From positions 1-64,000 of IMG/VR virus record IMGVR_UViG_3300021378_000007: a stretch of DNA of 64,000 nt. One strand, written 5' to 3'. Source of the DNA: a virus. Below the pieces are notes generated by a model that saw only the letters and a list, made by a program, of their open reading frames with translations, had not been told where the DNA came from and did no database searches. Below are positions 23,955 to 42,900 of the stretch, in pieces; position 1 is the stretch's first letter, and each line of letters opens with the position of its first letter. Position numbers and translations under genes: made by a program.

Positions 23955-24698
23955 TCAACCCTGCTCTTTTTCCCAGTCAATAGGTTCATATTGATACTTT
24001 TGTAACATACCATTTTCATCTAAACCGAATGTATTCTCATCGGGATGCCAACCTGTAGCGAAATTATTTCTATAAGCATCATAGTCTTTAATTTGAAATG
24101 CTGAGTTGAATGATATTGAATATCTGTCTTTGTCTGTCAAGTTTGGTGCTACCATATGCATCATACCACTAGGGAATAAAATCAATTCCCCTGTTCTTGG
24201 TTTGAAGTCCCATGACTCTTGGTGTCTATTGGAGTTTGGCATATCAGAAACAACTTTAGGGTCTGTATTAATAGCAACAAAATCTCCTTCGTCACCATCA
24301 GCATGGATATAGAAGACGCCACTATACCAACAACCATTATGTAAGTGTGGTCTGTTCCATGCAGTTTTATCATTTATATTTGCCCAACAGTTACCCATTT
24401 GAAATGCTGTTTTTGTTGGGTCAATCCCAAAGTAATTCCAAACCTCTTGGTAGAATACTGTACTAATTCGATTCATCAATTTTTGGAACGTTGGATTATT
24501 GTCTACACCATCGTTAGACTGCCATCCAGTATAAGCATTTGAAACTTGTCTACCAACACCATCACGTCTACGCATAGCATCCATCTCATCTTTCAGCATC
24601 TTCATGTATTCATCATCTAGAACGAGGTCATCCCCCATCTGTGTCGGACATGTCATGTTTCTTTGAAAGATAACGGTTGGGAATAAATATCTAATCAT
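23955..24698 (-). CDS. putative 2-oxoglutarate/Fe(II) oxygenase (TIGR02466-like)
   Basis: This is a 247-residue protein with the pattern of the putative 2OG-Fe(II) oxygenase family common in marine phages. It has MGNCWANIND (about 101-110), then RPHLHNGCWYSGVFYIH with H118 or H120 as first ligand, ELILFPSGMMHMV with H181 as distal histidine, and DRYSISFN with R192 for 2-oxoglutarate. The substrate is unknown. It is the 3' member of an accessory block and overlaps the upstream gene by eight bases. Confidence 0.82.
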   Translation of the reverse strand: MIRYLFPTVIFQRNMTCPTQMGDDLVLDDEYMKMLKDEMDAMRRRDGVGRQVSNAYTGWQSNDGVDNNPTFQKLMNRISTVFYQEVWNYFGIDPTKTAFQMGNCWANINDKTAWNRPHLHNGCWYSGVFYIHADGDEGDFVAINTDPKVVSDMPNSNRHQESWDFKPRTGELILFPSGMMHMVAPNLTDKDRYSISFNSAFQIKDYDAYRNNFATGWHPDENTFGLDENGMLQKYQYEPIDWEKEQG

Positions 24699-25602
24699 TA
24701 AAGTCTAACTCCAGTTGAACCTCAGTAGGTTCTTGTTCTTCACTTATGTGCATAGGGCATTCGGGTGGGGGATTATCATTTTTAAATAGTCTAGCTTTAG
24801 GCACCCAATAACCTTTATTTCTATACGGGCCCAAATCTCTAATGCCATCCTTCCCTTCAAATGGCGCTTTATGACCCCATTCTTGCATTGATAAAACCGT
24901 CTCAGTAGAACTGTCATGTGGGTCTATCTTATACCCTCTTCCTTTAGTTTCTTGCCAGTGTTCATGTGATTTTATTTCAAATGAAGCATGCCACTCTTCT
25001 CTCTTAAACGGTATAATCTGACAAAGAGGGGTTCCTTTTGGTATAACAAATGAATGGTCGACTTTAGGATAAAAAATTATCTGTGCATTGTCTAGACCAA
25101 CATTAAATGTATCAGTATCAATAATACCCTGCCAACATGCAAAGTATTTATTCTGAAATAAGAATGGGTCTAAGTAGAAGCATGAATAGCCTGGCGGAGT
25201 TTTTATGTTCCACGGATTTCTAAATTTAAATGCATCTTTTATAGGAGCTTTACCGTCACCGCTACCATAGTATTCAAAAGATTCTCTAACTTGTTCTTTA
25301 GGATGAGACATTGAATGGGTTCCAGCATCTTTACCATCCCAAGTAAATACTTTATTGGTACCACTATCTGTGATACTATCACCATTTATAACATGAATGT
25401 CTCTATTAGCAACAATAATCCATCCGCTCTTTAACCAATCATCCATTGCTGGACAAGCACGAATAGTTTGTTGTGTTCTGGCTTGAGTAAACTCCGCTAC
25501 CTTAGTTTTCTTCCACCACTCGGGTAAAATACTCTTTGCTAATACTGGTTTAAAATCAGCGAGGGTCTCTGAGCTGTAACTGTGAAATTCTATCATTGGC
25601 AT
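24691..25602 (-). CDS. DUF6065-like protein
   Basis: This is a 303-residue protein. The ATG at 25602 is used because AAGGAG stands nine bases upstream; an earlier ATG at 25641 lies deep in the preceding gene. I recognise the DUF6065 pattern from memory: a start with FHSYS...FKPVLAKSILPEWWKKT, RACPAMDDWLKSGWII, the central NPWNIKTPPGYSCFYLDPF, GIIDTDTF and KGTPLCQIIPFKREEWHASFE. The function is unknown; the fold looks like a beta sandwich or cupin. It is between two dioxygenase genes and overlaps both, which suggests work on the same pathway. Confidence 0.75.
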   Translation of the reverse strand: MPMIEFHSYSSETLADFKPVLAKSILPEWWKKTKVAEFTQARTQQTIRACPAMDDWLKSGWIIVANRDIHVINGDSITDSGTNKVFTWDGKDAGTHSMSHPKEQVRESFEYYGSGDGKAPIKDAFKFRNPWNIKTPPGYSCFYLDPFLFQNKYFACWQGIIDTDTFNVGLDNAQIIFYPKVDHSFVIPKGTPLCQIIPFKREEWHASFEIKSHEHWQETKGRGYKIDPHDSSTETVLSMQEWGHKAPFEGKDGIRDLGPYRNKGYWVPKARLFKNDNPPPECPMHISEEQEPTEVQLELDFND

Positions 25603-26335
25603 GATATTCTTCTCCTTCATGTGTAAGTGATACTTCATCACCTCTTAATACTATGGAACGTCTGTCCATGTATCGTGCTTTTGATGTAGGTGCATCCGCA
25701 CCATGTGGTATTCTTCCATCAAACATTAATAATCTATTTGGTTTATATTCTACAGAAGCAACTTGGTGATTCTTGACGTGGTCTTCTCTCCCATCAAGTC
25801 CAAATTGCATAGTATCATAAATTCTCAAATCTCCACCCCATGATGGATACCATACAGGGCTACAATAATATAAGAACGATATATTCCAATCTTCATCTTG
25901 AGCGCAATCAGAATGTGTTGTCCCATCTAGTCCTTGTGTTTGAGAGTTCAATCCCATGTATTGAAATTTCTCCCATTTAAATCCAAATTCAGTTCTCAGT
26001 CTGCTATCTATATATCTAGCAAACACGGCATTCAATGGGTCTGACCCTCTCTCAAGAACCAAATTACCTTTACCTAGTCTGCCATCCTCTTGAAATGCTC
26101 CTCTAAAGTAAGTTGCACCCCAAAAACTATGATGGGGGAATCCAGTAGCACTATCGCTCTGAACTTCATTTGTTTTAGACCATTCACTATAAGTCCTTAG
26201 ATGGACATTTGCATAGTGATGAAATAAATCAACACTGAGCCAATCATCTAATACATAGATATCTTGTAAAGGTAGGTCTTGAATCTTAAAAGGTTTATCA
26301 ATATGAACAACCTTTGGATTTAAATTAACCGCCAA
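25556..26335 (-). CDS. 2-oxoglutarate/Fe(II) dioxygenase, prolyl-hydroxylase-like
   Basis: This is a 259-residue dioxygenase. The iron-binding H-x-D is in GTTHSDCAQDEDWN, the distal His in FDGRIPHGADAP, and the 2OG-binding Arg in MDRRSIVLRG. WYPSWGGDLRIYD between them is typical of prolyl-4-hydroxylase-like phage enzymes (GGxLxxY/F). The start is uncertain: a TTG at 26335 has AAAAGGA eight bases upstream and overlaps the preceding gene by only 11 bases, whereas an ATG at 26407 without a Shine-Dalgarno would overlap by more than 80. It lies next to the glycosyltransferase and repeat-protein genes. Confidence 0.78.
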   Translation of the reverse strand: MAVNLNPKVVHIDKPFKIQDLPLQDIYVLDDWLSVDLFHHYANVHLRTYSEWSKTNEVQSDSATGFPHHSFWGATYFRGAFQEDGRLGKGNLVLERGSDPLNAVFARYIDSRLRTEFGFKWEKFQYMGLNSQTQGLDGTTHSDCAQDEDWNISFLYYCSPVWYPSWGGDLRIYDTMQFGLDGREDHVKNHQVASVEYKPNRLLMFDGRIPHGADAPTSKARYMDRRSIVLRGDEVSLTHEGEEYHANDRISQLQLRDPR

Positions 26336-26915
26336 TTTTTGTATCCTTTTGAAATTGGTGATTATCTGTTTCGGGAATTGATTGTGGTTGTGGTAGTTGT
26401 TCCACATAACTAGCAAAATCTCTAAGAGTATCTTCTCTAGTTCCTACAATCTCATTCATGACTTGGTCAAAGATGTGCCATAATGCATCAGCATACTCCA
26501 TAACACGTCTAGCATTAGACCTGTAAGGATGGTTGGAACCTTCTCTGCCAACATAGACAACCTCTGCTATATCAGAAAAATTAAATCCGCCAGCACATGC
26601 TTCAACATTCTTATTACACATATAAGCTAGTTGTTCAATGTATTGACCATTTAAGGTGACACCCATAGGTGGTTCTGAATTTTTAATGTAAGTTTCGACA
26701 GCGTCCTTTTCATCCGCACTTAAAGGAATTTGTTCTTGGTCTGGGAATTCTTTTTGGACATCCCAGTTTAGAATCTTAAGTTCTTCTTCAGCGTAGACTA
26801 GAACATCATAATCAAATCCCAATTCGGGTTTGTCGACATTATCAAACTTATAATGCAAACCATTAGGTTTAGTAATCATAAGTTCATTGTTTTCTGTGTA
26901 AATTAGTGCATTCAT
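26325..26915 (-). CDS. accessory protein of unknown function
   Basis: This is a 196-residue soluble protein. The N-terminal approximately 65 residues are acidic and mixed alpha/beta. The C-terminal half contains a helical region (RSNARRVMEYADALWHIFDQVMNEIVGTREDTLRDFASYVEQLPQP) that resembles the alpha-helical tail domain in tail-fibre-assembly or virion-associated phage proteins; this is inference. AAAAGGA precedes the ATG, and a TATAAT lies further upstream. It leads into the dioxygenase gene with an 11-base overlap. Confidence 0.7.
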   Translation of the reverse strand: MNALIYTENNELMITKPNGLHYKFDNVDKPELGFDYDVLVYAEEELKILNWDVQKEFPDQEQIPLSADEKDAVETYIKNSEPPMGVTLNGQYIEQLAYMCNKNVEACAGGFNFSDIAEVVYVGREGSNHPYRSNARRVMEYADALWHIFDQVMNEIVGTREDTLRDFASYVEQLPQPQSIPETDNHQFQKDTKIGG

Positions 26916-26953
26916 AATATATCCTTTTTCTCCATTATATCATAAGATTGTTA

Positions 26954-28549
26954 TCACAACAAGCTGTTTTTAACTTTGTTGTAGTGTTCTAAATTATTTA
27001 TGTGTCCTGTATCCATCCCATTTATCCATGGCCCACCTCTTGTATAGTGAACAGCAGAGAAATCCCACTTAACCTCGGGGTCATCATATCCCTCAACGAA
27101 CACATACTTCTCGGGGATGGGAGCAATCTTATCAGTCCATTCGAATTGATGTAATTGGGCACCTGTCCAAGTGTTAACCACTTCGGGTGTCAACTTCTTA
27201 CAGTCGGGATGACTGTTATTGAAGAACATCATAGATGACCATAGTTTACATGGATAATCTATATTAACTTCTCCATCAAACTTGGTTTCATCATGTTTAA
27301 TTTGTGGATACTTGATACATGCTACTGCATCATCTTGACCTAGGTAATAGAACATAGGCATAGGGTTTTTATTAAAGATGAAGTCATCATCTACAAACAT
27401 ACTAAACCCTTCATAGTTCTCAAGATACGGTATTAAGAATCTACTGTATGTAAATTCAGTAGATTGATTTGCATACTCTCTAGTGTACTCGGGTATCTTT
27501 GAAATGTCAAGTATTTTAATTTCTGGCGTAAACCTAGTGTAATCAACAAATCTCCCACCACCAACACTTCTCTTCACTGCATCTAATATAGATTGCTTGG
27601 AGTACAACTCTAGATTATTGTGTCTAGGGTCATAACCAATATAAATTGTTAGAGGTTTTCCAGCAGAAAGTTCTGTAAACTTCTTACTATGTTTCCAAAC
27701 TTCTCTTCTAAATTCTATATTGGAATGGTCGGATTGATATTCAAGTGTACCATTAGTAAATATAACACTCAAGTTTTTATGATTGCATTTTGTATTACCA
27801 TTGAGGATGGTTTCTTTCCAGTAATTCAAAGAATCGTCTATGGACATTGCTGGAATGTCGGGGAATGTATCTTGGAAATCCCATATCAAAAGTTCATGTG
27901 TTGGGTCTTCCATCTCTTCAAATACACCTGAACGTACACTGCCTGGATGTATCATAAGTTGTGTGAAATTAGTACCGTTAGGAGATTGAGTATATCCTTG
28001 AATAGGAGCCCACAATCCCTCCTCTCTAATACTTTGTGTAATCCAATGAGCTTTCGCACTATGATAATACATTGAATTCATAGACATGTCAAAATCTTCT
28101 GAATAAAAGTCACGTGGGTCGGTTGCTTCACCACAGTAGTCTTGAATTTTTTGCACTTCATCATCAACAGTGGCAACTTGGAATTTTGTTGTTATGTTTG
28201 TTTCACCTTCGGGTTGGATTCCTGAAGTGTAAATATCTGGCATGAATTTGTGATATGCATTACACTGAAATTGTAATCCATTAAAGGTCGTAATCTCTTT
28301 CTTTCTTCTCAGTGTATCAAGGTCTGACCACTTAAGAAGTCGTAGGGGAGGCATAACATTATCAAAAAAGTATGATAAGACTTTATAGAACTCGCTGTCT
28401 TTATCAATCTCATCAATATTAGTAGACCCTAAATGATATTGGGGTAATAGATGTCTCTGAGCATGACCATAGGTTTTGAGTTCTTCAGTTGGTATAGGGG
28501 TTTCTTCTAATTTTAGAAGTAGTGCATCAAGTGTTGTTATTTTTTCCAT
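26954..28549 (-). CDS. glycosyltransferase (GT-A type) with a large N-terminal domain
   Basis: This is a 531-residue protein. The C-terminal region (about 299-531) looks like a GT8-like nucleotide-sugar glycosyltransferase: LTIYIGYDPRHNNLELYSKQSI, then NQSTEFTYSRFLIPYLENYEGFSMFVDDDFIF with D387-D-D389 as the metal-binding DxD, and VHYTRGGPWI near the end. The N-terminal approximately 290 residues are not recognised; they contain YYHSAKAHWITQSIREEGLWAPIQGY and LMIHPGSVRSGVFEEM, conserved-looking and perhaps binding a substrate. The neighbours are two dioxygenases downstream and a P/Y/T-rich repeat protein directly upstream, so it may glycosylate that protein or its hydroxyprolines. This is a hypothesis. 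Confidence 0.8.
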   Translation of the reverse strand: MEKITTLDALLLKLEETPIPTEELKTYGHAQRHLLPQYHLGSTNIDEIDKDSEFYKVLSYFFDNVMPPLRLLKWSDLDTLRRKKEITTFNGLQFQCNAYHKFMPDIYTSGIQPEGETNITTKFQVATVDDEVQKIQDYCGEATDPRDFYSEDFDMSMNSMYYHSAKAHWITQSIREEGLWAPIQGYTQSPNGTNFTQLMIHPGSVRSGVFEEMEDPTHELLIWDFQDTFPDIPAMSIDDSLNYWKETILNGNTKCNHKNLSVIFTNGTLEYQSDHSNIEFRREVWKHSKKFTELSAGKPLTIYIGYDPRHNNLELYSKQSILDAVKRSVGGGRFVDYTRFTPEIKILDISKIPEYTREYANQSTEFTYSRFLIPYLENYEGFSMFVDDDFIFNKNPMPMFYYLGQDDAVACIKYPQIKHDETKFDGEVNIDYPCKLWSSMMFFNNSHPDCKKLTPEVVNTWTGAQLHQFEWTDKIAPIPEKYVFVEGYDDPEVKWDFSAVHYTRGGPWINGMDTGHINNLEHYNKVKNSLL

Positions 28550-28580
28550 AAACTAAATTCCAGTAAATTGCTTCTACCAG

Positions 28581-28588
28581 TATTTAGT
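28581..28588 (-). promoter_or_regulatory. possible late promoter box, ACTAAATA
   Basis: A CTAAATA-type variant 31 bases before the glycosyltransferase ATG, in the 51-base gap after the repeat-protein gene. The leader has no strong Shine-Dalgarno. Confidence 0.35.
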
Positions 28589-28600
28589 CGATGAAAAAAA

Positions 28601-30280
28601 TTAACTTATATCAGCAGCAGGCCACTGTTGTGACAAGTTACCATCCCAACGTATAACAGGTGTTCTACCTTGTCTAGCATATGTTGAAGGTTGTCTGTTC
28701 TGATAAGTGAACGGTGTTCTACCTTGTCTACTATATGTTGAAGGTTGTCTGTGTTGATACGTGAAAGGAGTTTGTCCTTGTCGTGCATATGTGCCAGGTT
28801 GTCTATTTTGATAAGTGAACGGTGTTCTACCCTGTCTAGCATATGTGCCAGGTTGTCTAGCGTTAGCGATATATGGTTGTTGACCATTCACTGGGTTTCT
28901 ATACGTACTAGGTTGTCTAGCGTTAGCGATATATGGTTGTTGTCCATTCACTGGGTTTCTATACGTACTAGGTTGTCTATTTTGGTACGTAAATGGCGTT
29001 TGACCTTGTCTAGCATATGTGCCAGGTTGTCTATTACTGTATGTAAATGGTGTCTGACCTTGTCTAGCATACGTGCCAGGTTGTCTATTTTGGTACGTAA
29101 ATGGCGTTTGACCTTGTCTAGCATATGTACTAGGTTGTCTGTTCTGATACGTAAATGGTATCTGATAACTTACAGGGTTTCCATAGATAGCAGGTTGTCT
29201 ATTACTGTATGTAAATGGTACTTGATAACCTACAGGGTTTCTATATGTAAACGGAGACCTGTTCTGATACGTAAATGGCGATTGACCATTCACTGGGTTT
29301 CTATACGTACTCGGTTGTCTATTTTGGTACGTGAAAGGAGTTTGTCCTTGTCGTGCATATGTGCCAGGCTGTCTGTTCTGATACGTAAATGGCGTTTGAC
29401 CTTGTCTAGCATATGTGCCAGGTTGTCTATTACTGTATGTAAATGGTGTTTGAGCATTTACTGGGTTTCTATACGTACTAGGTTGTCTATTACTGTATGT
29501 AAATGGTGTTTGACCTTGTCTAGCATATGTACCAGGCTGTCTATTTTGGTATGTGAACGGTGTTCTACCCTGTCTAGCATATGTACTAGGTTGCCTATTT
29601 TGATACGTGAACGGTGTTTGACTGTTCGCAATATATGGATACGGTTGTTGAGCACTTGCAATGTACGGTTGTTGACCGTTTACAGGGTTCCTATATGTGA
29701 ATGGGTTTCTTGCGTTAGCAATATATGGTTGCTGTGCTGATACTGGATTTCTGTAACCAGCAGGTTGTCTAGCGTTAGCGATATATGGTTGTTGTCCTGA
29801 AACAGGGTTTCTGTAACCAGCAGGTTGTCTAGCGTTAGCAATATAAGGCGATTGAGCATTTACAGGGTTTCTATATGTAAATGGTTGTCTATTATTATAA
29901 GTAAATGGCACACGATAACTTACAGGGTTCCTATATGTAAATGGAGACCTGTTTTGGTATGTGAACGGAACCCTATATGTGAATGGGTTACGATATGTAC
30001 TAGGTTGTCTAGCATTCGCAATATAAGGCACACGATACGTGAATGGGTTACGATATGTACTAGGTTGTCTAGCATTCGCAATATAAGGCACACGATACGT
30101 AAATGGGTTCCTATAGGTGCCAGGCTGTCTTGCGTTAGCAATATAAGGCACACGATACGTAAATGGGTTCCTATAGGTGCCAGGCTGTCTTGCGTTAGCA
30201 ATGTATGGCACACGATACGATGCGCTGTACGTGAACGGTTGTTGTGCAATGGACGGAACCTGATAACTGCCTTGTGCCAT
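28601..30280 (-). CDS. P/Y/T/N/Q-rich repeat protein, probable tail fibre or adhesin
   Basis: This is a 559-residue protein that is almost wholly repeat. Building blocks are 8-10 residues of the form (Q/R)-x-P-x-(T/I)-(Y/A), for example QTPFTYQNR, RQPGTYARQG, RQPSTYRNPVN and GQQPYIANAR. They combine into 18- and 20-residue superunits. Near the N-terminus a 20-residue unit, VPYIANARQPGTYRNPFTYR, recurs in tandem with S/G changes. There are almost no acidic residues, Lys or Cys; Arg is the main charge. Only about 20 residues at each end are unique (MAQGSYQVPSIAQQ and VIRWDGNLSQQWPAADIS). It is probably a beta-structured fibre. AGGAAAAA precedes the ATG. Confidence 0.8.
   Translation of the reverse strand: MAQGSYQVPSIAQQPFTYSASYRVPYIANARQPGTYRNPFTYRVPYIANARQPGTYRNPFTYRVPYIANARQPSTYRNPFTYRVPYIANARQPSTYRNPFTYRVPFTYQNRSPFTYRNPVSYRVPFTYNNRQPFTYRNPVNAQSPYIANARQPAGYRNPVSGQQPYIANARQPAGYRNPVSAQQPYIANARNPFTYRNPVNGQQPYIASAQQPYPYIANSQTPFTYQNRQPSTYARQGRTPFTYQNRQPGTYARQGQTPFTYSNRQPSTYRNPVNAQTPFTYSNRQPGTYARQGQTPFTYQNRQPGTYARQGQTPFTYQNRQPSTYRNPVNGQSPFTYQNRSPFTYRNPVGYQVPFTYSNRQPAIYGNPVSYQIPFTYQNRQPSTYARQGQTPFTYQNRQPGTYARQGQTPFTYSNRQPGTYARQGQTPFTYQNRQPSTYRNPVNGQQPYIANARQPSTYRNPVNGQQPYIANARQPGTYARQGRTPFTYQNRQPGTYARQGQTPFTYQHRQPSTYSRQGRTPFTYQNRQPSTYARQGRTPVIRWDGNLSQQWPAADIS
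28660..30205 (-). repeat. 54/60-bp tandem protein-coding repeats
   Basis: Repeats in frame in the 28601 gene. Two 60-bp copies at 28857-28976 differ by a single base, and several 60-bp copies run through 30000-30200. Most other copies differ at synonymous sites while keeping the protein motif, so selection seems to act on the protein. The opposite strand also lacks stops over long stretches because of this composition. Confidence 0.85.
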
Positions 30281-30292
30281 GTCTTTTTCCTA

Positions 30293-30553: not shown

Positions 30554-30564
30554 ATTTCTAATTC

Positions 30565-32790: not shown

Positions 32791-32820
32791 ATTAAAAAAA
32801 TATACTCTATTAAGAGTATA
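32791..32820 (-). terminator. rho-independent terminator overlapping a stop codon
   Basis: On the minus strand a perfect 8-bp stem TATACTCT/AGAGTATA with a TAAT loop runs directly into a T-rich tract. The TAA stop of the fibre gene ending at 32810 lies at the loop, so the last codons form the stem's left arm. Confidence 0.8.
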
Positions 32821-35368
32821 AAATCCACATATCACCAACTGCGCCATCAGAACTTTGGGGTGCTGATGTGTTTTGATATATGTTTCTCACATATCCACCT
32901 GAATTACTAGCGTTAGTTGTAGTAATTGTTCCTAGTGTTGCGTTTGAACCACTCTCGTATTTAGTGTTCAAAGCAGTCTGTAATCCGTCAACATTTGCAA
33001 TCGTATGATTATGTGAATCATCTGCAACTGCAGCTGAAATTGTAATATTACCAGTTCCATCAAATGATGCAGACCCTGATAAATCTCCACCCAATGCAAT
33101 TGTTCTTGCAGTAGTTAACTTAGCAGCACTAGATGCAGTTGAAGCGTTTCCTGTTAATGAACCTTCAAAAGAAGATGCCTTAACATTATATGAACCAAAT
33201 GTCCACTCGTCTTCCGACTCGTCCCATGTTAATGAAACATTAGCAGAAGTTCCTCTTTCAACTTCAATACCTGAATCCTGTGAAGGTGTCCCAGTAACAT
33301 CATTGTTAAGTGTAATGATATTATCAGACACATTAAGCGTTGCAGTGTTAACAGTTGTTGTAGTTCCATTTACTGTCAAGTTGCCAGAAAGCGTAAGGTC
33401 TGCAAATGATACATCACTTGTAGTTGCAACTGCCTGACCGATACTAAATGCACCGCCTGAATATGATACACCAGTTCCAGCACTTAAATGCGCCCTTACT
33501 TCTGAAGAACTTGGGCCTGTATATGTTATTACACCAGTACCACTATTGTATGCAAGTGAACCATCTCCACCACCATCTGTGACTGAGATTTTACCTCTTA
33601 CTTGTGAATCACTAATACCTGAGTATGTAATCGCACCAGTTGAAGAGTTGTATGATAATGAACCGTCTCCAGCATTATCAGTAACAGAAATTAATCCTCT
33701 TACTTCAGCATCTGTTCTCTCTGTGAATGAGAATGCACCAGTTCCACTGTTGTATGATAAATCACCACCAGCAGATACTAATCCTCTGATATTTGCATCT
33801 GACAAACCAGCAAGTGTAAGTGTTCCAGCAGTATCGTCATATGTTGATGTGATGTTTGTTCCACCAACTATCAAACCATTTACGATATCTTCGATTTCTT
33901 CTTCAGTTTTTCCTGAAGAGTTAATTGTAAGTGTTCCAGCAGAGTCATCGTATGCAAGTGTTATGTTTGTTCCAGCAGTCGCCATACCACCAACAACATC
34001 TTGAACTCTTTCTGTTGTATGATAAAGGTTTCCATTTTCTGATACATCACCAGTGTCTAGTGTGACTGCACTACCTAAGGCAGTTGCACTTCCGTTAACT
34101 GTGATTGAACTATTAGCAAGTTTTGCGTTTGATATAGAACCCGCCAACATAGCGTCTGTAATACCAAGTGCTTTTACTTGTAATGTGTCTGAACTTGTTT
34201 CGATTGAACTATCGTCAACATTTACTGCAAGTGATAATGCACCTGTAGTTCCACCACCTGATAAACCGTCTCCAGCAGTGACACTTTCGATATCACCAGC
34301 ATCGTTTGTGAAACTAATTACACCAGTTGAGTTATCGTATGATAAATCTCCACTTGCTGATATTAAACCCCTAACATGTGATGTTGATACTGCAAGGTCG
34401 ATTGCACCGTCACCAGCATCATCGTAAGTTGCTGTAAGACCAGTGTGTGAACCGTTGGTTGCAAACTGAGTACCAACTGTATCTTGTATATTCTCGTAAG
34501 GTACTCTAATTTCTAAATCGCCATTCGCATCATCATAAGTCAATGCGACATTGACACCTGCAGATAATAAACCGTTTACTCTATCGTCAACTCTTTCGTT
34601 TGTGAAGAATAGATTTCCGTTTTCTGCAAAATCACCAGTGTCTAAATTTAATGTCCCACCCAATGATAGTGCATTAGAATTTATTGTTACACTTGAATTG
34701 GATAGTTTATTATTATCAACAGAACCCGCCAACATGGCATTAGTAATACCACCCGCTTTGACTCTTAGTGTGTCTGAATCTGTTTCAATTGAACTATCGT
34801 CTACTTGGACAGCAAGTGATACATCACCACTTGTACCGCCACCTGTAAGACCATCACCAGCAGTAACACCTGTAATATCACCAACTTGTCCGTTAAGTGT
34901 AAGTGTTCCAGCACTGTCATCATATGTAGATGTAAGTCCTGTTCCAGCAACAATTAAAGAATTAACTCTGTCGTCAACTCTTTCATTTGTAAAGTAAAGG
35001 TTTGACCCTTCTGATAAGTCACCCGTATCGAATGCAGACATATTAACTGCGATATCATCTGCGTTTACAGTGATACCTGTACCAGCACCGATGTTTAATG
35101 TTGCATCACCCGAACTTGCAGTACCAGTTAAACCAGCACCAGCATTAACTCCAGTGATATCACCTTGTTGTCCGTTAATTGTTAGTGTATTAGCAGCATC
35201 GTCATATGTCAATGACACACCTGTTCCTGCTGTTAGTAACGAAGCGACTCTATCGTCAATTGTTTCAGTACCAATAGCAGCACCAGTAATTTGACCACTT
35301 GAGTCAATTACCTCAACACCATTGACGTTTAACCCATTCTTAATATTAAAATTCTTTTCACCAGCCAT
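32810..35368 (-). CDS. beta-helical tail fibre protein with long internal repeats
   Basis: This is an 852-residue fibre-like protein. After MAGEKNFNIKNGLNVNGVEVIDSSGQI, long units repeat several times. They contain GDITGVxAGxGLTGG..., VDDSSIETxSDTLxVKA, GITxAMLAGS, LDTGDxxEGNLYFTNERVDDRVN and LxAGTGVxLTYDDAxGTLTING. A later part carries AEVRGLISxxGDLSYNSGTGAxxFT units, then a shared TLSGNLTVNGTTTTVNT block also present in the 37785 protein. Such Gly/Asp/Thr repeats build trimeric beta-helix fibres in marine myoviruses. The C-terminus (YQNTSAPQSSDGAVGDMWILYS) resembles the common end of phage structural proteins. It overlaps the upstream small gene by one base (TAATG), with GGAGG before its ATG. 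Confidence 0.85.
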   Translation of the reverse strand: MAGEKNFNIKNGLNVNGVEVIDSSGQITGAAIGTETIDDRVASLLTAGTGVSLTYDDAANTLTINGQQGDITGVNAGAGLTGTASSGDATLNIGAGTGITVNADDIAVNMSAFDTGDLSEGSNLYFTNERVDDRVNSLIVAGTGLTSTYDDSAGTLTLNGQVGDITGVTAGDGLTGGGTSGDVSLAVQVDDSSIETDSDTLRVKAGGITNAMLAGSVDNNKLSNSSVTINSNALSLGGTLNLDTGDFAENGNLFFTNERVDDRVNGLLSAGVNVALTYDDANGDLEIRVPYENIQDTVGTQFATNGSHTGLTATYDDAGDGAIDLAVSTSHVRGLISASGDLSYDNSTGVISFTNDAGDIESVTAGDGLSGGGTTGALSLAVNVDDSSIETSSDTLQVKALGITDAMLAGSISNAKLANSSITVNGSATALGSAVTLDTGDVSENGNLYHTTERVQDVVGGMATAGTNITLAYDDSAGTLTINSSGKTEEEIEDIVNGLIVGGTNITSTYDDTAGTLTLAGLSDANIRGLVSAGGDLSYNSGTGAFSFTERTDAEVRGLISVTDNAGDGSLSYNSSTGAITYSGISDSQVRGKISVTDGGGDGSLAYNSGTGVITYTGPSSSEVRAHLSAGTGVSYSGGAFSIGQAVATTSDVSFADLTLSGNLTVNGTTTTVNTATLNVSDNIITLNNDVTGTPSQDSGIEVERGTSANVSLTWDESEDEWTFGSYNVKASSFEGSLTGNASTASSAAKLTTARTIALGGDLSGSASFDGTGNITISAAVADDSHNHTIANVDGLQTALNTKYESGSNATLGTITTTNASNSGGYVRNIYQNTSAPQSSDGAVGDMWILYS

Positions 35369-36425: not shown

Positions 36426-36430
36426 GATAC

Positions 36431-36438
36431 TATTTATA
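36431..36438 (-). promoter_or_regulatory. late promoter box, TATAAATA
   Basis: A perfect late box ending five bases before the ATG at 36425 and following the terminator at 36452-36477. Confidence 0.7.
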
Positions 36439-36451
36439 CATTATGAGAGTT

Positions 36452-36477: not shown

Positions 36478-36497
36478 AAAAATAGTTTTTTTAATAA

Positions 36498-36908: not shown

Positions 36909-36921
36909 TTCTTATGCCTCC

Positions 36922-37746
36922 CTATTGCATTCTAATTTGGAACGTTTTGAATGTAGTATTCGTATTAGCAGGTGTTACCAGCAATCTCATGTTGTTACTA
37001 TTCATATCACTAGAAAGTGTGAATAGAGATGAACCTGAGTATGCATCACCATACTGAACGAAGTATACATTCGTACCGTCATTGATTAAAAGAACCTCAG
37101 CAGCGTGAGTACCACCAGTAGCATGTGTTGCAACAATTACATGTTTAATTGCAATTACTGCTTTTGCGTTAGAAGTCAATACTTGGTCAGCAGTCGTTGC
37201 TGTTAAAGCAACTGTCGTGAAGAAACCTTGTACAAGGTTTGATATTGAAGTCTGTGCAACTACTTGTAATACATCTCCCGCCACAGCGTTCGCCTGTAAT
37301 GTGATAACTGAAGTACTAGTTGTAGCATAGTCATCACCACTCACTAATTTAACACCATTCAGATAGACTTGTTCTAGTCCAACAGTGTAAGCAAGTGTTA
37401 CACCATTATCATCTGAACCTGAAATTACGGTTGTGTTACCAGTTATATCATATTTGAAAGTTACAACACCAGTGCTTGGTGCATTTACGAAACCTAAAGT
37501 TCCACTTCCATTTGTTGATAATAACTGACCACTTGTACCGTCTGCAGTTGGGAATGTTAAAGCATCATTGATAGTAAGAGAAGTCGGGTTAGACCCAACT
37601 TCTACAACAGCAGCAGAACCATCATTCTTCTCAGTGTAAAACCTACCGTGGTAAGTGTTTACCGCTAATTCACCAAGTGCAAGGTCACTTACGCCTGGTA
37701 ATGCGTTCTGAGTAGAACTTCTTTTAAATTGGATTACTGTTGCCAT
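36922..37746 (-). CDS. tail fibre-like protein, shared C-terminal module
   Basis: This is a 274-residue protein. The N-terminus (MATVIQFKRS...PGVSDLALGELAVNTYHGRFYTEKND) is the standard virion-attachment start of many phage fibres, shared with the 37785 gene. The middle is beta-rich (VTFKYDITGNTTVISGSDDNGVTLAYTVGLEQVYLNGVKLVSGDDY). The C-terminal module (IKHVIVATHATGGTHAAEVLLINDGTNVYFVQYG...MRLLVTPANTNTTFKTF) is shared with the two genes downstream. AGGAG precedes the ATG. Confidence 0.83.
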   Translation of the reverse strand: MATVIQFKRSSTQNALPGVSDLALGELAVNTYHGRFYTEKNDGSAAVVEVGSNPTSLTINDALTFPTADGTSGQLLSTNGSGTLGFVNAPSTGVVTFKYDITGNTTVISGSDDNGVTLAYTVGLEQVYLNGVKLVSGDDYATTSTSVITLQANAVAGDVLQVVAQTSISNLVQGFFTTVALTATTADQVLTSNAKAVIAIKHVIVATHATGGTHAAEVLLINDGTNVYFVQYGDAYSGSSLFTLSSDMNSNNMRLLVTPANTNTTFKTFQIRMQ

Positions 37747-37784
37747 TTTCTTCTCCTATTGAATCGGTTAATTTGGATTATTAA

Positions 37785-39419
37785 TTAAAATGTTCCGCCG
37801 TCAATAGCAGTAACTGTTACCGCACCACTTGATACTGTAAAGTTACTTGAAGCAAAAGAAGCAATACCTTTTACTGAAGCTGTTGCATCTTTAATAGATA
37901 CAGCACCACTTGAAACATCAAAGATAGCAGAAGCAAAGCTTGCGATACCTTTATTAGATGTTGTAGCATCTTCAGCAGCGATTGTTATTGCACCGTCAGC
38001 ATTAGTTACATCGATACCTTCACCAGCAGTTAGAGTTGCAAGTTCCATGTCTCCATTAGAACCATTACCAACCAATAACTCACCAGCAGCAGGAGCCGCA
38101 CCGTCTACAGAAGTGATTGAACCACTTAATGCAAGACCAGCACCTGAAAGGTTACCACCTGTTGAAAGACTACCAACTGTTAATGCACCAAATTCTGCAT
38201 CACCAACACTTCCTGAGAAGACTGAAGATGTATCTGTTGCATCTTGGATGAACTTAAACTTACCGTCTGAATCGTCCATACCAAAGAAACCAATCTTAGC
38301 AGCTGAACCATTGTGCCAGTTAAATTTAATACCTCTGTCTAAGTTATCGTCTGAAGTTCCTTCACCGATTTCAAATACAGGGTCATCAATTTCTACTGTT
38401 GTAGAGTTAACTGTTGTTGTAGTACCGTTTACTGTCAAGTTGCCTGAAACTGTTAGGTTACCTGAAGCAGCGATGTTTGTAGATGTGATGTCATCCGATG
38501 TAAGTGTTCCATCAACGTCTACGTTGTTGAAAGTTACGTTAGATGTTGTTGCAACTGCCTGACCAATAGCGAAAGTCGCTGCTTGACCTGAAACAGAAGT
38601 TGTTACACCAGTTCCACCAGTAAATGTGATTGACTGAGAGTCTAAGTCGACTGAACCACTTCCACTGTCACCAGCAAGGTCTAAGTCCTGTGCTGTGATG
38701 TTTGAATCTACATATGCTTTAACAGATTGCTGAGAAGGAACTTTGACTGCTGAATCAGATGACATGTCATCTTCGTCAACTAAGAAGTTAATCTTATCTA
38801 CTGTTACATTAGCGTTTAGAATCTTAGCAGTTGTAACTTTATCGTTTCCGATTGTTACTGCACCACTAGATGCCATAGTTGCATCACCACTCATTGATAC
38901 GTTATCGAATGAATTACTTCCATCATGAACAAGCATTTGTCCGCCTGTTGGAGATGAAATATCTGAATCCGTTGCACCTGCTAGTGTTGATGTTGTTGAT
39001 AAGAATGATAAGTTTCCACTACCATCTGTACCAATTACTTGGTTTGCAGAACCGTCTGCTGTAGGTAGAGTAAAGGTTGTCGAAGCACCCAATGTGTCAG
39101 CAGCTTTTAATGCAACGAAGTTCGTTCCATTATCACTGTCTTCCATTAACTGAACACTTGCACCAGCAGTTGCACCATTACCAACTTTAAAGTTAGCAGG
39201 CGTTGCAGCTGAACCACCTAGTATATCCGTATAATATTTACCACCAATTGCTTGAATAAGTGGAGTAGAGTTATCTGAGTCTACTGATTCGATATATAGT
39301 TTCGCACCAGCACCTGAATTCGCTCTATCTTGTACATATGCCAACTCACCTACTGATAAATCACTCGTAGATGGAGCCGCAACACCTGTACTTCTTTTAA
39401 TTTGAATTACTGTTGCCAT
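37785..39419 (-). CDS. tail fibre protein with attachment domain and beta-helical repeats
   Basis: This is a 544-residue protein. The N-terminus MATVIQIKRSTGVAAPSTSDLSVGELAYVQDRA marks a virion-attachment domain. It continues with a GNGATAGASVQLMEDSDNGTNFVALKA block, then VKAYVDSNITAQDLDLAGDSGSGSVDLDSQSI and GNLTVSGNLTVNGTTTTVNSTTVEI, which the 32810 fibre shares in part. The C-terminus has two closely similar units (KGIASFASAIFDVSSGAVSI and KGIASFASSNFTVSSGAVTV) and ends AIDGGTF. AGGAG precedes the ATG. Confidence 0.85.
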   Translation of the reverse strand: MATVIQIKRSTGVAAPSTSDLSVGELAYVQDRANSGAGAKLYIESVDSDNSTPLIQAIGGKYYTDILGGSAATPANFKVGNGATAGASVQLMEDSDNGTNFVALKAADTLGASTTFTLPTADGSANQVIGTDGSGNLSFLSTTSTLAGATDSDISSPTGGQMLVHDGSNSFDNVSMSGDATMASSGAVTIGNDKVTTAKILNANVTVDKINFLVDEDDMSSDSAVKVPSQQSVKAYVDSNITAQDLDLAGDSGSGSVDLDSQSITFTGGTGVTTSVSGQAATFAIGQAVATTSNVTFNNVDVDGTLTSDDITSTNIAASGNLTVSGNLTVNGTTTTVNSTTVEIDDPVFEIGEGTSDDNLDRGIKFNWHNGSAAKIGFFGMDDSDGKFKFIQDATDTSSVFSGSVGDAEFGALTVGSLSTGGNLSGAGLALSGSITSVDGAAPAAGELLVGNGSNGDMELATLTAGEGIDVTNADGAITIAAEDATTSNKGIASFASAIFDVSSGAVSIKDATASVKGIASFASSNFTVSSGAVTVTAIDGGTF

Positions 39420-39567
39420 TTTTTTCTCCTGAAAAAATTAGTTATTTTTTAATAAAATTATGTTAATTCTAGTTGTCTAGAATATGAATCATTATGTAGT
39501 CTGTCCACTCACTATGTGGGTCGCTGTCTCACTGTCGACAACCTTGATTTGTCTTTTATTTAGACAA
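39420..39567 (-). promoter_or_regulatory. 148-base intergenic leader with a possible late box
   Basis: This is the longest gap in the fibre region. TCTAAATA lies at 39557-39564, just after the stop of the 84-residue gene, and AGGAGAAAAA stands right before the ATG at 39419. The leader between them is AT-rich with short self-complementary pieces, such as CCAC...GTGG near 39507-39525. No open frame of interest is present. A transcript from this box would have a leader of about 130 bases. Confidence 0.35.
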
Positions 39568-39822
39568 TTAGAATGTTCCACCATCGAGGATGGTAGTTGT
39601 AGTCCACTTGTCTGAAGCTGCATCATATGATAACAATCCGTTATCAGTTTCTGTTGCATCTACGTCTGCAAGTTCATTGATAGATTTTGCAGTGATGTCT
39701 GAACCACCTGCTACAGAAGCTGCGTTACCTACTGCGACTTGTTTCGCACGTAAGTTACTTCCACCTTGTACTCTGCCACCTATTGTTGCGACTCTGCTTA
39801 ATGTTCCTTTAATATTGCTCAT
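39568..39822 (-). CDS. 84-residue fibre-module protein
   Basis: This is a small structural-type protein: a basic N-terminal part (MSNIKGTLSRVATIGGRVQGGSNLRAKQV), then the widespread fibre unit INELADVDATETDNGLLSYDAASDKW, ending TILDGGTF. The ending matches those of 37785 and 35368. The ATG overlaps the upstream gene by four bases. It is possibly an adaptor or stub for attaching fibres. Confidence 0.75.
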   Translation of the reverse strand: MSNIKGTLSRVATIGGRVQGGSNLRAKQVAVGNAASVAGGSDITAKSINELADVDATETDNGLLSYDAASDKWTTTTILDGGTF

Positions 39823-40151
39823 CTTGTAACTCCCGGCGTAATTATAGCTTGTCCCTCAACAACACGTGTCTTGAGACCACTACCATCAGTTGTGACCAAG
39901 TCATAAACATACCTGCCTGGACTCATAGCTGCTGTTACAGCGTCGGTGAGTGACATAGTGACCTGTCCTGAGGCCTCTGTTACAGTACAAGTAAATGTTG
40001 CTGCTACTGTACTAGATTCATAAGTTTTTCGAATTTGTCCTGTTGCAGTATACCCTGACATATTCAAAACTGCACCGTTAACATCTGTAACGTCAACAGT
40101 AATCTGAAAGTCAGCGCCTTGGTCTATGAATATATTTGCAATTATGGCCAT
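39819..40151 (-). CDS. 110-residue beta-sandwich structural protein
   Basis: The pattern IANIFIDQGADFQITVDVTDVNGAVLNMSGYTATGQIRK...GQVTMSLTDAVTAAMSPGRYVYDLV looks like a small Ig-like or BppU-type beta domain used at the base of phage adhesins; family membership is inference. TATAAATA ends five bases before the ATG, with no Shine-Dalgarno. It is coupled to the next small gene by a four-base overlap. Confidence 0.78.
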   Translation of the reverse strand: MAIIANIFIDQGADFQITVDVTDVNGAVLNMSGYTATGQIRKTYESSTVAATFTCTVTEASGQVTMSLTDAVTAAMSPGRYVYDLVTTDGSGLKTRVVEGQAIITPGVTR

Positions 40152-40156
40152 TTAAC

Positions 40157-40164
40157 TATTTATA
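40157..40164 (-). promoter_or_regulatory. late promoter box, TATAAATA
   Basis: A perfect late box ending five bases before the ATG at 40151. It lies in the 18-base gap after the repeat gene ending at 40170. Confidence 0.7.
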
Positions 40165-40169
40165 CCTTT

Positions 40170-41288
40170 TTATGTTTTACTAAACTGTGCAGTTGGAACA
40201 GATTGGTGAATCTTCTCTACAGTGCCACTATCATTGACATACACTTTATCTAGTTTCTTTATTTGGTTTCCATCATTTACATATATCCCTTTAACTTTAG
40301 CGATCGGCCCAATACTTCTAGTTGTACTATAATCTTGTTGGTATATGTAAGGTTGCTGTACTTGGTATGCAACTTGATATGTAACTTGGTATGTAGTGGG
40401 TTGTCTAGCATTAGCAATATAAGGTTGTTGTGCATTCGCAATATACGGATAAGGTTGTTGTGTTATCCTAATAACAGGGGTGTTATATGCCCTCTGTAAA
40501 ATGTAAGGTGTCTGTGCATTAGCAATGTAAGGTGTCTGTGCATTTACAGGATTCCTATATGTAAATGGACTCCTATTCTGATACGTAAACGGTGTTTGTG
40601 CATTAGCAACTGCAGTACTAGGTTGTCTATGTTGATAGGTGAACGGTGTCTGTGCATCAGCAGTAAATGGATACGTTTGTATCGCTGGTTGTTGATGATT
40701 ATAATTCCTATCTGATATTACAGGGTATGTAGTAGGTTGTCTAGCATTAGCAATATAAGGTTGTCTAGCTTCTCTAGTATATGTAAACGGGGTTTGTCCT
40801 TGTCGTGCATATGTGAATGGATGTCTATAAGACACCTGTGTTTGTGCAACACCTTGTCTAGAATACGTTGTCGGGTGTTGATATGCAACTTGATATATAG
40901 CAGGTTGTCTATGTTGATAAGTAGACGGTTGCTGTGAAGTAGTCGGACTCTGAAGCTGATACGTAGAAGGTTGTTGGTTTATATACGGAGCATTTTGTTG
41001 TATAGATACCTGTATTTCTTTTTGTGCAGTTCTAGAATATGTAAATGGACTCTGATAAGTCGTCTGTGCTTGAGCATTTGTAGTATATGGGTAAGTACCG
41101 ATAACAGGTGTCCTATAACTAGCAGGGTGTTGATACGTAACCTGATAATCTTGCTGTCCGATAGCAGGATATGAATACGTAGCTGGTTGTTGTGCTATAG
41201 CAGGTACAGGTCTTTGCCCTTCAGTTTCCACATTCAACGTTTGTTGGAATGTGAAAGGGTTATTTTGTTGTGTAAATCCTATAGCCAT
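40170..41288 (-). CDS. P/Y/Q-rich repeat protein with a C-terminal anchor-like domain
   Basis: This is a 372-residue protein of the same repeat type as 28601 and 30565 but more diverged: ATYSYPAIGQQDYQ, QPSTYQHRQPAIYQVAYQHP, QTPYIANAQTPYI and TTYQVTYQVAYQVQQ. Unlike the others its non-repeat domain is at the end: SIGPIAKVKGIYVNDGNQIKKLDKVYVNDSGTVEKIHQS, a duplicated Y-V-N-D motif resembling the structural start of 30565 in style. The order of anchor and repeat is thus reversed. GAGG precedes the ATG. It is one base away from the upstream repeat gene. Confidence 0.8.
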   Translation of the reverse strand: MAIGFTQQNNPFTFQQTLNVETEGQRPVPAIAQQPATYSYPAIGQQDYQVTYQHPASYRTPVIGTYPYTTNAQAQTTYQSPFTYSRTAQKEIQVSIQQNAPYINQQPSTYQLQSPTTSQQPSTYQHRQPAIYQVAYQHPTTYSRQGVAQTQVSYRHPFTYARQGQTPFTYTREARQPYIANARQPTTYPVISDRNYNHQQPAIQTYPFTADAQTPFTYQHRQPSTAVANAQTPFTYQNRSPFTYRNPVNAQTPYIANAQTPYILQRAYNTPVIRITQQPYPYIANAQQPYIANARQPTTYQVTYQVAYQVQQPYIYQQDYSTTRSIGPIAKVKGIYVNDGNQIKKLDKVYVNDSGTVEKIHQSVPTAQFSKT

Positions 41289-41289
41289 C

Positions 41290-42900
41290 TTAATAGAACC
41301 TCAATCGTTTAGGGGCATTCAATACTGTGTAACCTTGAACAGATGATGGTAGTCCTCCACCAACAATCCAATTCACCCCTTGAATATCATATATTCCTTG
41401 AGTTGGGCCTTGGACATTGACTGCTTGCATATATATTACTGGTATTCCACCGATATGATTCCATGTATTGGAGCTATAACTCCAGTAAGCATATTCTATC
41501 CTATTCCACTGACCAGTAGCATTTAATCTCATAGGTTGACTTGGTTTTAATTGTATATGATTATTCACAGATGGGTCATGTGAGTACAATCCAGTCCAAG
41601 GCATTGTTCCACCCATTCTTTGAGTTGTCTTCCAAGTTGGTGATACGCCTGGTGTCGCTTGACCCGCTAGCGCCTGAGCGGGTACGCCAACGGTCGGCGG
41701 TAAGTAAGCACCTGTTGCGCCATTTTGAGGGGAACCACTGTTAGTATTACCATCAACACCTGCTGGAGCATAGTATGTCCCAAGTGGGGCACCCATAGCG
41801 GCATATAGGTCTGTTCCGACTAGTCCCCCATACGAATAACTTTGGAAATTTCCTGTACCATGGAAATATTCTCCAATTATAGGGTCGGGATAATTATATG
41901 AGACTGCTAATTGGTTTTGTCCTGAAGCAGGAACCTGATTTGGTTGTTGATATATGTAAGGTTGTTGTAATTGGGTTTGATAACTTGCTTGGTAATTACC
42001 AGTCGCTGTATATATCACTGGTCTTTGAGCAATTGCTTGTGTAGTGAACTGATATGATGCTGGTTGTCTAAACCCATAATTAGCTTGCACCTGAGCAATA
42101 TAAGGTGATTGAGCTTGCACACTCGCCTGGGCGTTTGCTTGATATGTGTATTCTTGTATTGCTGGTTGTTGTGCAATAACTTGATATGTAGCATTCACCG
42201 CTGTTTGTCTACTTGCAATTGAAGGATTAGCATTATCAATCGTAGTTTGTCTATTTGCAATTACAGGATGTCTGTAAGACGCTGGTTGTTGAGCAGTGTT
42301 TTGTCTATTTGCAATGTACGGATATGTATAAGGTTGTTGTGTTTGTGCTACATATTGTCCATTAGCAATGTACGGATACGGTTGCTGGGCATTAGCAGTA
42401 TACTGATACGTTGTTTGATTGGTATACGTAAACGGTATCTGTTTATTAACTTGGTTTTGATAAGGTTGTTGTGCAATAACAGGATTCTGATACGGAATAT
42501 TACCCTGTAGGTTATAGATACTAGGTTGCCTTGCATTAGCAATATAAGGTGTTTGAATCTGATTTTGATACGTACTCGGTTGTCTAGCGCTAGCGATATA
42601 TGGTTGTTGACCATTCACTGGATTTCTATACGTACTAGGTTGTTGATTTACATAAGTAGAGGGTTGTCTACCTTGTCCAACATATGTAGCAGGAACTTGA
42701 TGATTATATGGTGCTGGCGTTCGACCCTGTCTAGCATAGGTGAATGGACTTCTATTAGAATATGTAAAGGGTACTTGTTGATTGGCAGGCTGACGAGCTA
42801 TACGTTGTCTTATGATTGGTGCTGTACCAGTTGCAATAGCTTGTCCTTGATACGGTTGTTGTATCGTAGAGCCAATGTTTATATAAATTTCATCTGCCAT
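41290..42900 (-). CDS. P/Y/Q-rich repeat fibre protein with a C-terminal receptor-type domain
   Basis: This is a 536-residue protein. The N-terminus MADEIYINIGSTIQQPYQGQAI leads into about 300 residues of degenerate P/Y/A/N/Q repeats (VPFTYSNRSPFTYARQGRTP, QQPYIASARQPSTYQNQ, YIANGQYVAQTQQPYTYPYIANRQ). The C-terminal approximately 200 residues are unique and aromatic/Gly-rich (GTDLYAAMGAPLGTYYAPAG...; PVIYMQAVNVQGPTQGIYDIQGVNWIVGGGLPSSVQG), related in style to the end of the 30565 protein. It is probably an adhesin whose tip is at the C-terminus. It follows the 831-residue fibre gene by one base. Confidence 0.8.
   Translation of the reverse strand: MADEIYINIGSTIQQPYQGQAIATGTAPIIRQRIARQPANQQVPFTYSNRSPFTYARQGRTPAPYNHQVPATYVGQGRQPSTYVNQQPSTYRNPVNGQQPYIASARQPSTYQNQIQTPYIANARQPSIYNLQGNIPYQNPVIAQQPYQNQVNKQIPFTYTNQTTYQYTANAQQPYPYIANGQYVAQTQQPYTYPYIANRQNTAQQPASYRHPVIANRQTTIDNANPSIASRQTAVNATYQVIAQQPAIQEYTYQANAQASVQAQSPYIAQVQANYGFRQPASYQFTTQAIAQRPVIYTATGNYQASYQTQLQQPYIYQQPNQVPASGQNQLAVSYNYPDPIIGEYFHGTGNFQSYSYGGLVGTDLYAAMGAPLGTYYAPAGVDGNTNSGSPQNGATGAYLPPTVGVPAQALAGQATPGVSPTWKTTQRMGGTMPWTGLYSHDPSVNNHIQLKPSQPMRLNATGQWNRIEYAYWSYSSNTWNHIGGIPVIYMQAVNVQGPTQGIYDIQGVNWIVGGGLPSSVQGYTVLNAPKRLRFY

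Follow-up and report, generated by a model that had tools for sequence, protein, structure and literature searches.

Mimivirus modifies its own collagen with the lysyl hydroxylase/glucosyltransferase L230 and the glucosyltransferase R699, a case in which repeat-containing structural proteins of a virus are combined with a 2-oxoglutarate (2OG) hydroxylase and a glycosyltransferase acting on them (PMC9546862; here and below, PMC numbers refer to excerpts of the articles). Here, we analyze a locus of similar make-up in a 64 kb stretch of DNA (positions 1 to 64,000 of the 120,692-base IMG/VR virus record IMGVR_UViG_3300021378_000007, hereafter the window) from an uncultured, marine phage that is T4-like and Kyanoviridae-like. 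It consists of four genes for proline/aromatic repeat proteins and a downstream cassette of five genes, encoding a glycosyltransferase (GT), the conserved protein a, a prolyl-4-hydroxylase-like 2OG/Fe(II) oxygenase (OG1), protein D and a second oxygenase (OG2) (Table 1). The Mimivirus system differs from this locus in its collagen repeats, its lysine target, its eukaryotic host and the enzyme families involved.

Plant extensins carry Pro/Tyr-rich repeats with contiguous prolines (Ser-Pro-Pro-Pro), which are served by prolyl 4-hydroxylases and glycosyltransferases. They resemble the phage locus in combining such repeats with a hydroxylase and a transferase, but the phage repeats are nearly free of adjacent prolines and have a period of two residues. 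Mussel foot protein 1 shares short Pro/Tyr/Thr-rich repeats with the phage proteins, in this case hydroxylated decapeptides, but is an animal adhesive. For the chlorovirus PBCV-1, we know of no dedicated repeat protein combined with a GT cassette. Its prolyl 4-hydroxylase is a viral 2OG enzyme that acts on Pro-containing peptides (PMC7019647), and the viral use of prolyl hydroxylase has been called cryptic (PMC9301287). Phage-borne collagen-like fibres of Escherichia coli are described as not hydroxylated (PMC3368898), and excerpts of the open-access (PMC) literature, with subscription journals outside this scope, describe no phage system of fibre hydroxylation and glycosylation.

Oxygenase/halogenase clusters of Kyanoviridae (S-SSM6a, HTVC008M, Sf-FP1, Mosig, S-CAM1) also contain 2OG oxygenases, located in the interval between fibre region and neck in Mosig, HTVC008M and Sf-FP1 and around the short tail fibre in S-CAM1. 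They differ from the window in three respects: the scanned stretches (S-SSM6a was not among them) encode no alternating Pro/aromatic protein, protein a and GT are not in the slot between fibre and neck genes, and OG1 occurs only as distant relatives. The cluster of S-SSM6a has been read as capsule or metabolite synthesis (PMC7824862), and for the 2OG oxygenases of cyanophages, roles in DNA repair or in modulating 2-oxoglutarate have been put forward (PMC3037559, PMC2984593).

A two-residue rule in four repeat proteins

The four repeat genes (28601, 30565, 40170 and 41290; genes are named by their lower coordinate) are open frames on the minus strand with Pro/aromatic repeats, just as an initial annotation of the window had described them. 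Pro makes up 9.5-13.2% and Tyr 9.7-11.6% of the proteins. The distances between successive prolines are 2, 4, 6, 8, 10, 12 and so on, and seldom odd: even spacings account for 72/73, 90/93, 34/36 and 42/50 in the order given above, with a mixed picture for the other window proteins. As a control, short Pro spacings were counted across 45 other window proteins and were even in 149 of 282 cases. The rule extends to 200 distinct repeat proteins drawn from the first three scans of the survey described below, in which 8227 of 8971 Pro spacings are even. Most of the 744 odd spacings (508) reach into the 60 residues at either end of the protein, and just 10 have three even units on each side. Using successive Tyr/Phe spacings as a Pro-free measure, 9631 of 10431 were even. 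The alternation score is at least 1.27 in the 200 repeat proteins and 1.50 in 41290, the next window protein reaching 0.70.

Within even spacings, the two phases differ in composition. The Pro phase consists of Pro (27.8%), Gln (18.2%), Thr (12.8%), Arg (12.1%), Asn (10.5%) and Ile (8.5%), with only 0.23% Tyr and 0.24% Phe. The other phase, from which Pro is missing by construction because the phase is defined by Pro, holds Tyr (22.45%), Ala (18.1%), Phe (9.04%), Ser (8.2%), Gln (8.1%) and Gly (5.3%). This is the pattern that would be expected of a beta-type chain with two faces, one of Pro/Thr/Gln/Arg and one of Tyr/Phe/Ala.

Because repeat copies are not independent, distinct types of Pro-to-Pro units (up to 20 amino acids) were counted as well, and these were even in 32/33, 41/43, 33/34 and 41/48 cases in the four proteins, against the 149 of 282 control spacings. 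Identical peptide units differ in their codons, the eight copies of TPFTYQNR occurring in seven DNA forms, and selection therefore acts on the protein. Taken together, codon diversity and distinct unit types rule out chance or DNA-level repeat expansion. The higher-order repeat has a period of 18 or 20 residues, and the strongest repeat lags (18, 36, 8, 20) are all even. A collagen-like Gly-X-Y triplet with a period of three is incompatible with these even lags and with the low Gly content of 2.7-7.6%. The extensin likeness put forward in the initial annotation did not hold up: with a strict two-residue period and only 17 of 8971 spacings equal to 1, an extensin or polyproline reading is rejected.

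No Pfam family was found above the cut-off for any of the four proteins, and PHROG gave no convincing family: 28601 matched phrog_4041 (3.5e-8) and phrog_33328, both families without a function and with no stretch passing alone, 40170 matched phrog_13729 at 0.0015, and 30565 and 41290 matched none. Among 50,697 cultured phage records, 41290 had no match and 30565 three weak ones. Proline-rich matches in phages of Pseudomonas, Mycobacterium and Escherichia were not convincing, and neither was one in MW202485, where the annotated neighbourhood contains recombination and DNA genes. Loose matches to the repeat motif in proteins of 1900-2200 amino acids were dismissed as scattered chance; the window's own 2257-residue protein has five. 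A PDB sequence search with 28601 and 30565 returned no relative. In IMG/VR, relatives of 30565 are encoded in 274 stretches. Two-residue alternation with exchangeable units would amount to a fibre sequence rule for which no Pfam family was found.

The variable C-terminal domain of 30565 is Hint/intein-like in some homologues. Judged by pattern, 15 of the 200 distinct proteins have such an end, usually preceded by a Gly-rich stretch; most of the 15 are homologues of 30565, and L062:9440-11263, L027:5095-7023, L080:478-2238 and L200:7863-9167 are among them. The four that were checked carry Pfam Hint/intein matches, down to 1.2e-11. Possible roles of these ends are self-cleavage of the fibre or C-terminal ligation.

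The cassette and its co-inheritance with the repeats

Downstream of the repeat genes, GT is followed by a run of open frames down to 23955, as noted initially, with 26325, 25556, 24691 and 23955 each overlapping the next one. The two enzymes called dioxygenases at that stage are indeed 2OG oxygenases according to Pfam (1.7e-8 for OG1, 2.9e-19 for OG2), but the intact H-x-D...H...R motif ascribed to both is present in OG1 only. Here, H168-x-D170...H238...R252 is invariant in all 85 alignment rows, and PF13640 was found in 20/20 family members. OG2 has H118-x-H120...H181...R192 instead, invariant in 98/98 rows, and reaches the curated scores of TIGR02466 (94 bits vs 62.5) and PF13759 (69.8 vs 27). 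The true start of OG1 is, by alignment, probably about 40 codons inside the frame. Its best solved relative in PDB is prolyl 4-hydroxylase (P4H) alpha (E 6.6e-4), followed by HIF prolyl hydroxylase and TPA1 at 0.26, which leaves prolyl 4-hydroxylase as the only significant one; the solved relatives of OG2 are uncharacterised proteins. PHROG labels both 25556 and the oxygenase gene 8979 as 'DNA endonuclease V', which contradicts Pfam and looks like a case of mislabelled families. PHROG 274 and 2297 ('DNA endonuclease V'/'DNA endonuclease') fall on 2OG oxygenases in this analysis, and the same type of endonuclease label is found on neighbours within oxygenase runs of annotated phages.

The initial annotation had listed this 8979 oxygenase (8979-9647), together with one at 191, as two more dioxygenases. 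The 8979 gene lies between UvsW (7529) and UvsY (9649; Pfam 8.1e-27), and the order UvsY/8979-like/UvsW is common to Pelagibacter phage Mosig and 12 sister-type loci. Because of this UvsY-UvsW linkage and the same order in Mosig, we place it outside the fibre cassette.

The assignment of 26954 as a glycosyltransferase stands for the GT8-like C-terminal half, which resembles nucleotide-sugar transferases of other phages, Mosig included, and carries an invariant DxD motif (D387 and D389 in 89/89 alignment rows). In Pfam, however, Glyco_transf_8 was matched in 12 of 20 family members, the window's own not among them, and always below the cut-off (best match 1.7e-4, 21.7 bits vs 24.3). A ParB/sulfiredoxin-like N-terminal half, an impression by motif recall, was supported by no tool. 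Protein a gave no Pfam match below E 0.13, no PHROG, no NCBIfam and no significant PDB relative.

D had been called DUF6065-like, and what is left of this is a weak match to PF19541 in 1 of 20 members (E 0.048), short of the cut-off. Its predicted model, with a mean pLDDT (predicted local distance difference test) of only 56 and some blocks at 70-87, suggests a dUTPase-type fold: 49 of the 50 rows that Foldseek listed are dUTPases by name (best E 1.4e-3), and the VIA-align Z reaches up to 8.3, in a range that the tool calls common. At the place corresponding to the catalytic dUTPase motif PRSG, D reads DPF by eye. A dUTPase family search in four cultured records found none. Haloarchaeal tailed viruses encode a D homologue, which in HSTV-2 (L232:8896-9765) lies beside thymidylate synthase and fits a dUTPase-like fold.

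The co-occurrence survey proposed in the initial annotation was run with four IMG/VR scans and one GTDB genome scan, taking the best 80 loci per protein scan. After leaving out the window's own contig and cultured records, 335 loci were kept, of which one contig may give several. In all 187 neck-anchored loci (full neck protein and more than 6.5 kb upstream), OG2, D, OG1, a and GT were present together with a repeat gene. These loci form 38 clusters at 95% identity and 14 at 85%. For GT-anchored loci (near-full GT and more than 700 bases upstream), a repeat gene was found directly upstream in 237/237, representing 55 clusters at 95% and 22 at 70%. Finally, GT was present in 190/190 loci with a 32810 homologue, repeats and more than 2 kb downstream. 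Only loci that satisfied these length limits entered the counts. As they all belong to one lineage, the survey documents an absence of loss, not repeated gains.

A scan with a divergent GT revealed a sister lineage. It returned 36 loci, 21 of them of the usual type (one, L364, ends before its repeat gene). In 13 of the other 15, GT is located beside UvsY and an 8979-like oxygenase, with UvsW there too except in one short contig. Eight records of these 15 were examined: G004-G006 hold OG1 and a elsewhere, and G001-G003, G007 and G008, all fragments of 12-19 kb, gave no OG1, a or repeat. In G006 and G004, the slot contains a 42902 homologue, one repeat protein of 459 amino acids, a, OG1, D, OG2 and the neck gene, and the repeat gene of G006 is about 17 kb away from GT on the same contig. 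The sister repeat protein retains an N-terminal domain shared with 30565 (74.7 bits) and an RWDG end that, by eye, corresponds to that of 28601. The repeat units themselves are new ones (RPATYPAQ, QQPYGYQQNYQVAF), with only two trivial unit types in common with the window; Pro spacings are even in 71/76, Tyr/Phe spacings in 62/63 and distinct unit types in 27/32. In a further relative (L481), 66/71 Pro and 56/58 Tyr/Phe spacings are even, followed by a-OG1-D-OG2. These sister-lineage loci show that rule and cassette were kept while the units were exchanged and GT is elsewhere. A repeat profile (A7) had no match in 15 records, a weak negative because three of them hold the sister OG1 and a and two were seen with the sister repeat; the alternation scan, which covers fetched stretches only, is the better negative.

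As repeat-free cousins, we used loci retrieved with the Mosig neck protein; of the best 80, 39 have more than 2.9 kb and 15 more than 6.5 kb upstream. Repeats, GT, OG1, a and D were absent upstream of the neck gene in all 39. The alternation scan (frames of at least 80 amino acids) covered 36-37-kb stretches of Mosig, HTVC008M and Melnitz and a 19-kb stretch of Sf-FP1 and found no frame with a score above 1.0. Protein a was found in none of four cultured records, and in Melnitz no oxygenase is annotated in the slot. In the cultured phage S-CAM1, the surroundings of a short tail fibre and a tail assembly chaperone include an OG1-like protein, 25.5% identical to the sister OG1 (E 1e-7), as well as two more annotated 2OG oxygenases, a context that would support a fibre role for such oxygenases. 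Taken together, the loci provide strong genomic evidence that an unusual, alternating, fibre-like protein and an oxygenase/transferase cassette form a lasting partnership.

Two alternation flags concerned other frames. One fell on a structural protein of a cousin phage (L392:905-2905) and was rejected as a Pro/aromatic repeat, the repeat being V-T-G-N with a two-residue period; the other, in L449, was on a minus-strand frame.

Gene neighbourhood of the cassette

The window belongs to a T4-like myovirus, in which portal, sheath, major head protein and terminase as well as neck and baseplate genes were recognised. Neck protein 22802 shares 47-50% identity over its full length with homologues of Mosig, P-TIM40, Melnitz and HTVC008M; Mosig, HTVC008M and Melnitz are classified as Kyanoviridae in GenBank. 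Repeat genes and cassette are located between the tail-fibre genes (42902; 39819) and the neck genes. Exact TATAAATA boxes occur 10 times in the window, all on the coding (minus) strand, compared to 6.3 expected on both strands, and 6 of 100 shuffles reached 10. Eight of them are at most 50 bases, and four exactly 6 bases, before a gene start. The boxes are weakly compatible with late expression of the cassette. One repeat-cassette block (L348) is part of a 121-kb contig binned as a Sphingobacteriales metagenome-assembled genome, which either points weakly to the host or reflects misbinning of a phage.

Table 1. Coordinates of the repeat genes, the cassette and neighbouring features in the window
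Feature	Coordinates	Strand	Remarks
Neck protein (head-tail adaptor Ad2), survey anchor gene	22802..23617	-	P-HM2 homologue annotated gp13
Small conserved neighbour	23669..24019	-	PHROG 462/12220
OG2, PF13759/TIGR02466 oxygenase, 247 aa (amino acids)	23955..24698	-	HxH...H...R
D, 316 aa, dUTPase-type fold in predicted model	24691..25641	-	Homologues begin at about residue 15
OG1, prolyl-4-hydroxylase-like 2OG/Fe(II) oxygenase, 286 aa	25556..26416	-	HxD...H...R
Protein a, 196 aa, conserved	26325..26915	-	Between GT and OG1 in main lineage
Glycosyltransferase (GT), 531 aa	26954..28549	-	GT8-like C-terminal half, D387-x-D389
Repeat protein 4, 559 aa	28601..30280	-	Nearly all repeat; conserved C-terminal RWDG end
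Repeat protein 3, 735 aa	30565..32772	-	Conserved N-terminal KTP-GW domain, repeat tract, variable C-terminal domain
Structural protein directly upstream of repeat protein 3	32810..35368	-	PHROG 697
TATAAATA late-promoter-like box	36431..36438	-	Nearest exact box upstream of repeat proteins 3 and 4 and the cassette
Fibre-assembly-like protein inside repeat block	39819..40151	-	PHROG 3304, L-shaped tail fibre assembly, 1.7e-22
Repeat protein 2, 372 aa	40170..41288	-	Alternating repeats; conserved C-terminal KVKG-Y-VNDSGT segment
Repeat protein 1, 536 aa	41290..42900	-	Alternating Pro/aromatic repeats in N-terminal ~340 aa (by eye), then non-repeat C-terminal domain
Tail-fibre protein upstream of repeat block	42902..45397	-	

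A putative route of fibre maturation and its alternatives

Our interpretation starts from four observations, namely the repeat rule, the conserved catalytic residues, the co-inheritance and the position among fibre genes. We put the chances at about even that a late cassette hydroxylates and glycosylates the proline face of a fibre. The four proteins would be tail-fibre proteins forming an extended or beta-solenoid chain with a two-residue period and an 18/20-residue super-repeat. One face of the chain would carry Pro, Thr, Gln, Arg, Asn and Ile, the second Tyr, Phe, Ala, Gly and Val. The downstream genes would act as a late fibre-maturation cassette, in which OG1, and probably also OG2, would hydroxylate residues of the proline face, most likely Pro itself, and OG2 may add a second oxidation. 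The GT8-like enzyme would add a sugar to hydroxylated or Thr residues, while D and protein a would assist as chaperone or scaffold. The expected product is a stiff, hydroxylated, glycosylated adhesive fibre. We infer the substrate, the target residue, the sugar, the fold, the location in the virion, late expression and the order of steps. Overall, the observation made in the initial annotation was partly confirmed and its interpretation partly supported.

The target residue may also be a different one. In a variant that does not exclude the above, OG1/OG2 would hydroxylate Asn, Arg or Tyr, and GT would glycosylate Thr or Tyr directly. The frequency of Thr and Asn on the proline face, the abundance of Tyr on the other one and the lack of the usual HxD in OG2 are in agreement with this variant. 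Nevertheless, among solved structures OG1 is nearest to prolyl hydroxylase, and the placing of Pro in one phase is constant in both lineages; we regard such targets as possible, though unlikely.

Several findings weigh against a maturation cassette dedicated to the repeats. The main-lineage loci share ancestry and synteny, and their counts are not independent events. An AlphaFold2 (AF2) prediction for 28601 with 27 homologues gave a pLDDT of 36, no secondary structure and no fold. The nearest NCBIfam model of OG1 is FlmC and not a prolyl hydroxylase (31.9 bits vs a cut-off of 240), and a P-SSM2 relative of OG1 is found among replication genes. An OG2-like gene is present in 3 of the 39 cousin loci (1 of the 15 with more than 6.5 kb), and Mosig, HTVC008M and Sf-FP1 have OG2-like genes, several of them in the same slot, without repeats. 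Mosig also has a very weak OG1-like frame in the slot (E 9.5e-4). GT relatives occur elsewhere in the Mosig genome and in Caulobacter and other phages, and GT is without repeats in its locus in 15 of the 36 loci of the divergent scan (L369-L383), three of them sister-lineage contigs that have repeats elsewhere. For PBCV-1, the prolyl hydroxylase is described as conserved, with no hydroxyproline detected in virions (PMC7019647). In view of the cousin and cultured-phage contents, we regard OG2 as a general tenant of the slot, and OG1 proper and a as companions of the repeats.

In an alternative reading, the enzymes modify a non-repeat target, such as host capsule, lipopolysaccharide or a small molecule, as proposed for the oxygenase/halogenase clusters of jumbo cyanophages (PMC7824862 for S-SSM6a). 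The presence of the GT family in other neighbourhoods fits this proposal, and so does Sf-FP1, where OG2-like and D-like genes adjoin a tryptophan halogenase and a weak OG1-like stretch (1.4e-4) is found elsewhere. However, the cassette is situated inside the fibre/neck block and tracks the repeats even after unit exchange, and in the 39 repeat-free cousin loci the neck gene has no OG1, a, GT or D next to it, which makes a non-repeat target rather improbable. The Sf-FP1 run itself (L233, 7467-13490) combines the halogenase, the D-like protein and several 2OG oxygenases in the interval between tail fibres and neck, and is possibly a halogenating variant of fibre modification.

A cassette that merely stays beside the fibre genes through conserved gene order, without a function for them, is slightly more doubtful still. 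The whole block is highly syntenic, and the loci represent one broad lineage and its sister; on the other hand, no loss was seen in 187 loci, the active-site columns are invariant across 84 OG1, 97 OG2 and 88 GT sequences, and the sister contig G006 keeps GT about 17 kb from the repeat gene. A role of the oxygenases in DNA repair or host 2-oxoglutarate/nitrogen metabolism, suggested for cyanophage enzymes (PMC3037559, PMC2984593), fits the 8979 gene and the P-SSM2 relative of OG1 but is very improbable for 25556 and 23955, which lie among fibre/neck genes, the former tied to the repeats.

Returning to hydroxylation and glycosylation of the repeats, the alternation rule with exchangeable units has no Pfam family and, for the proteins searched, no convincing relative in cultured phages, yet it is encoded in 274 IMG/VR stretches. 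Tentatively, and with somewhat less confidence than for the cassette as such, the proteins may represent a new class of phage fibre that becomes functional only after a dedicated five-gene cassette has hydroxylated and glycosylated its proline face, and that would give extensin-, collagen- or mussel-type maturation its first counterpart among phages. For the 2OG oxygenases of marine T4-like phages, this provides a concrete substrate hypothesis.

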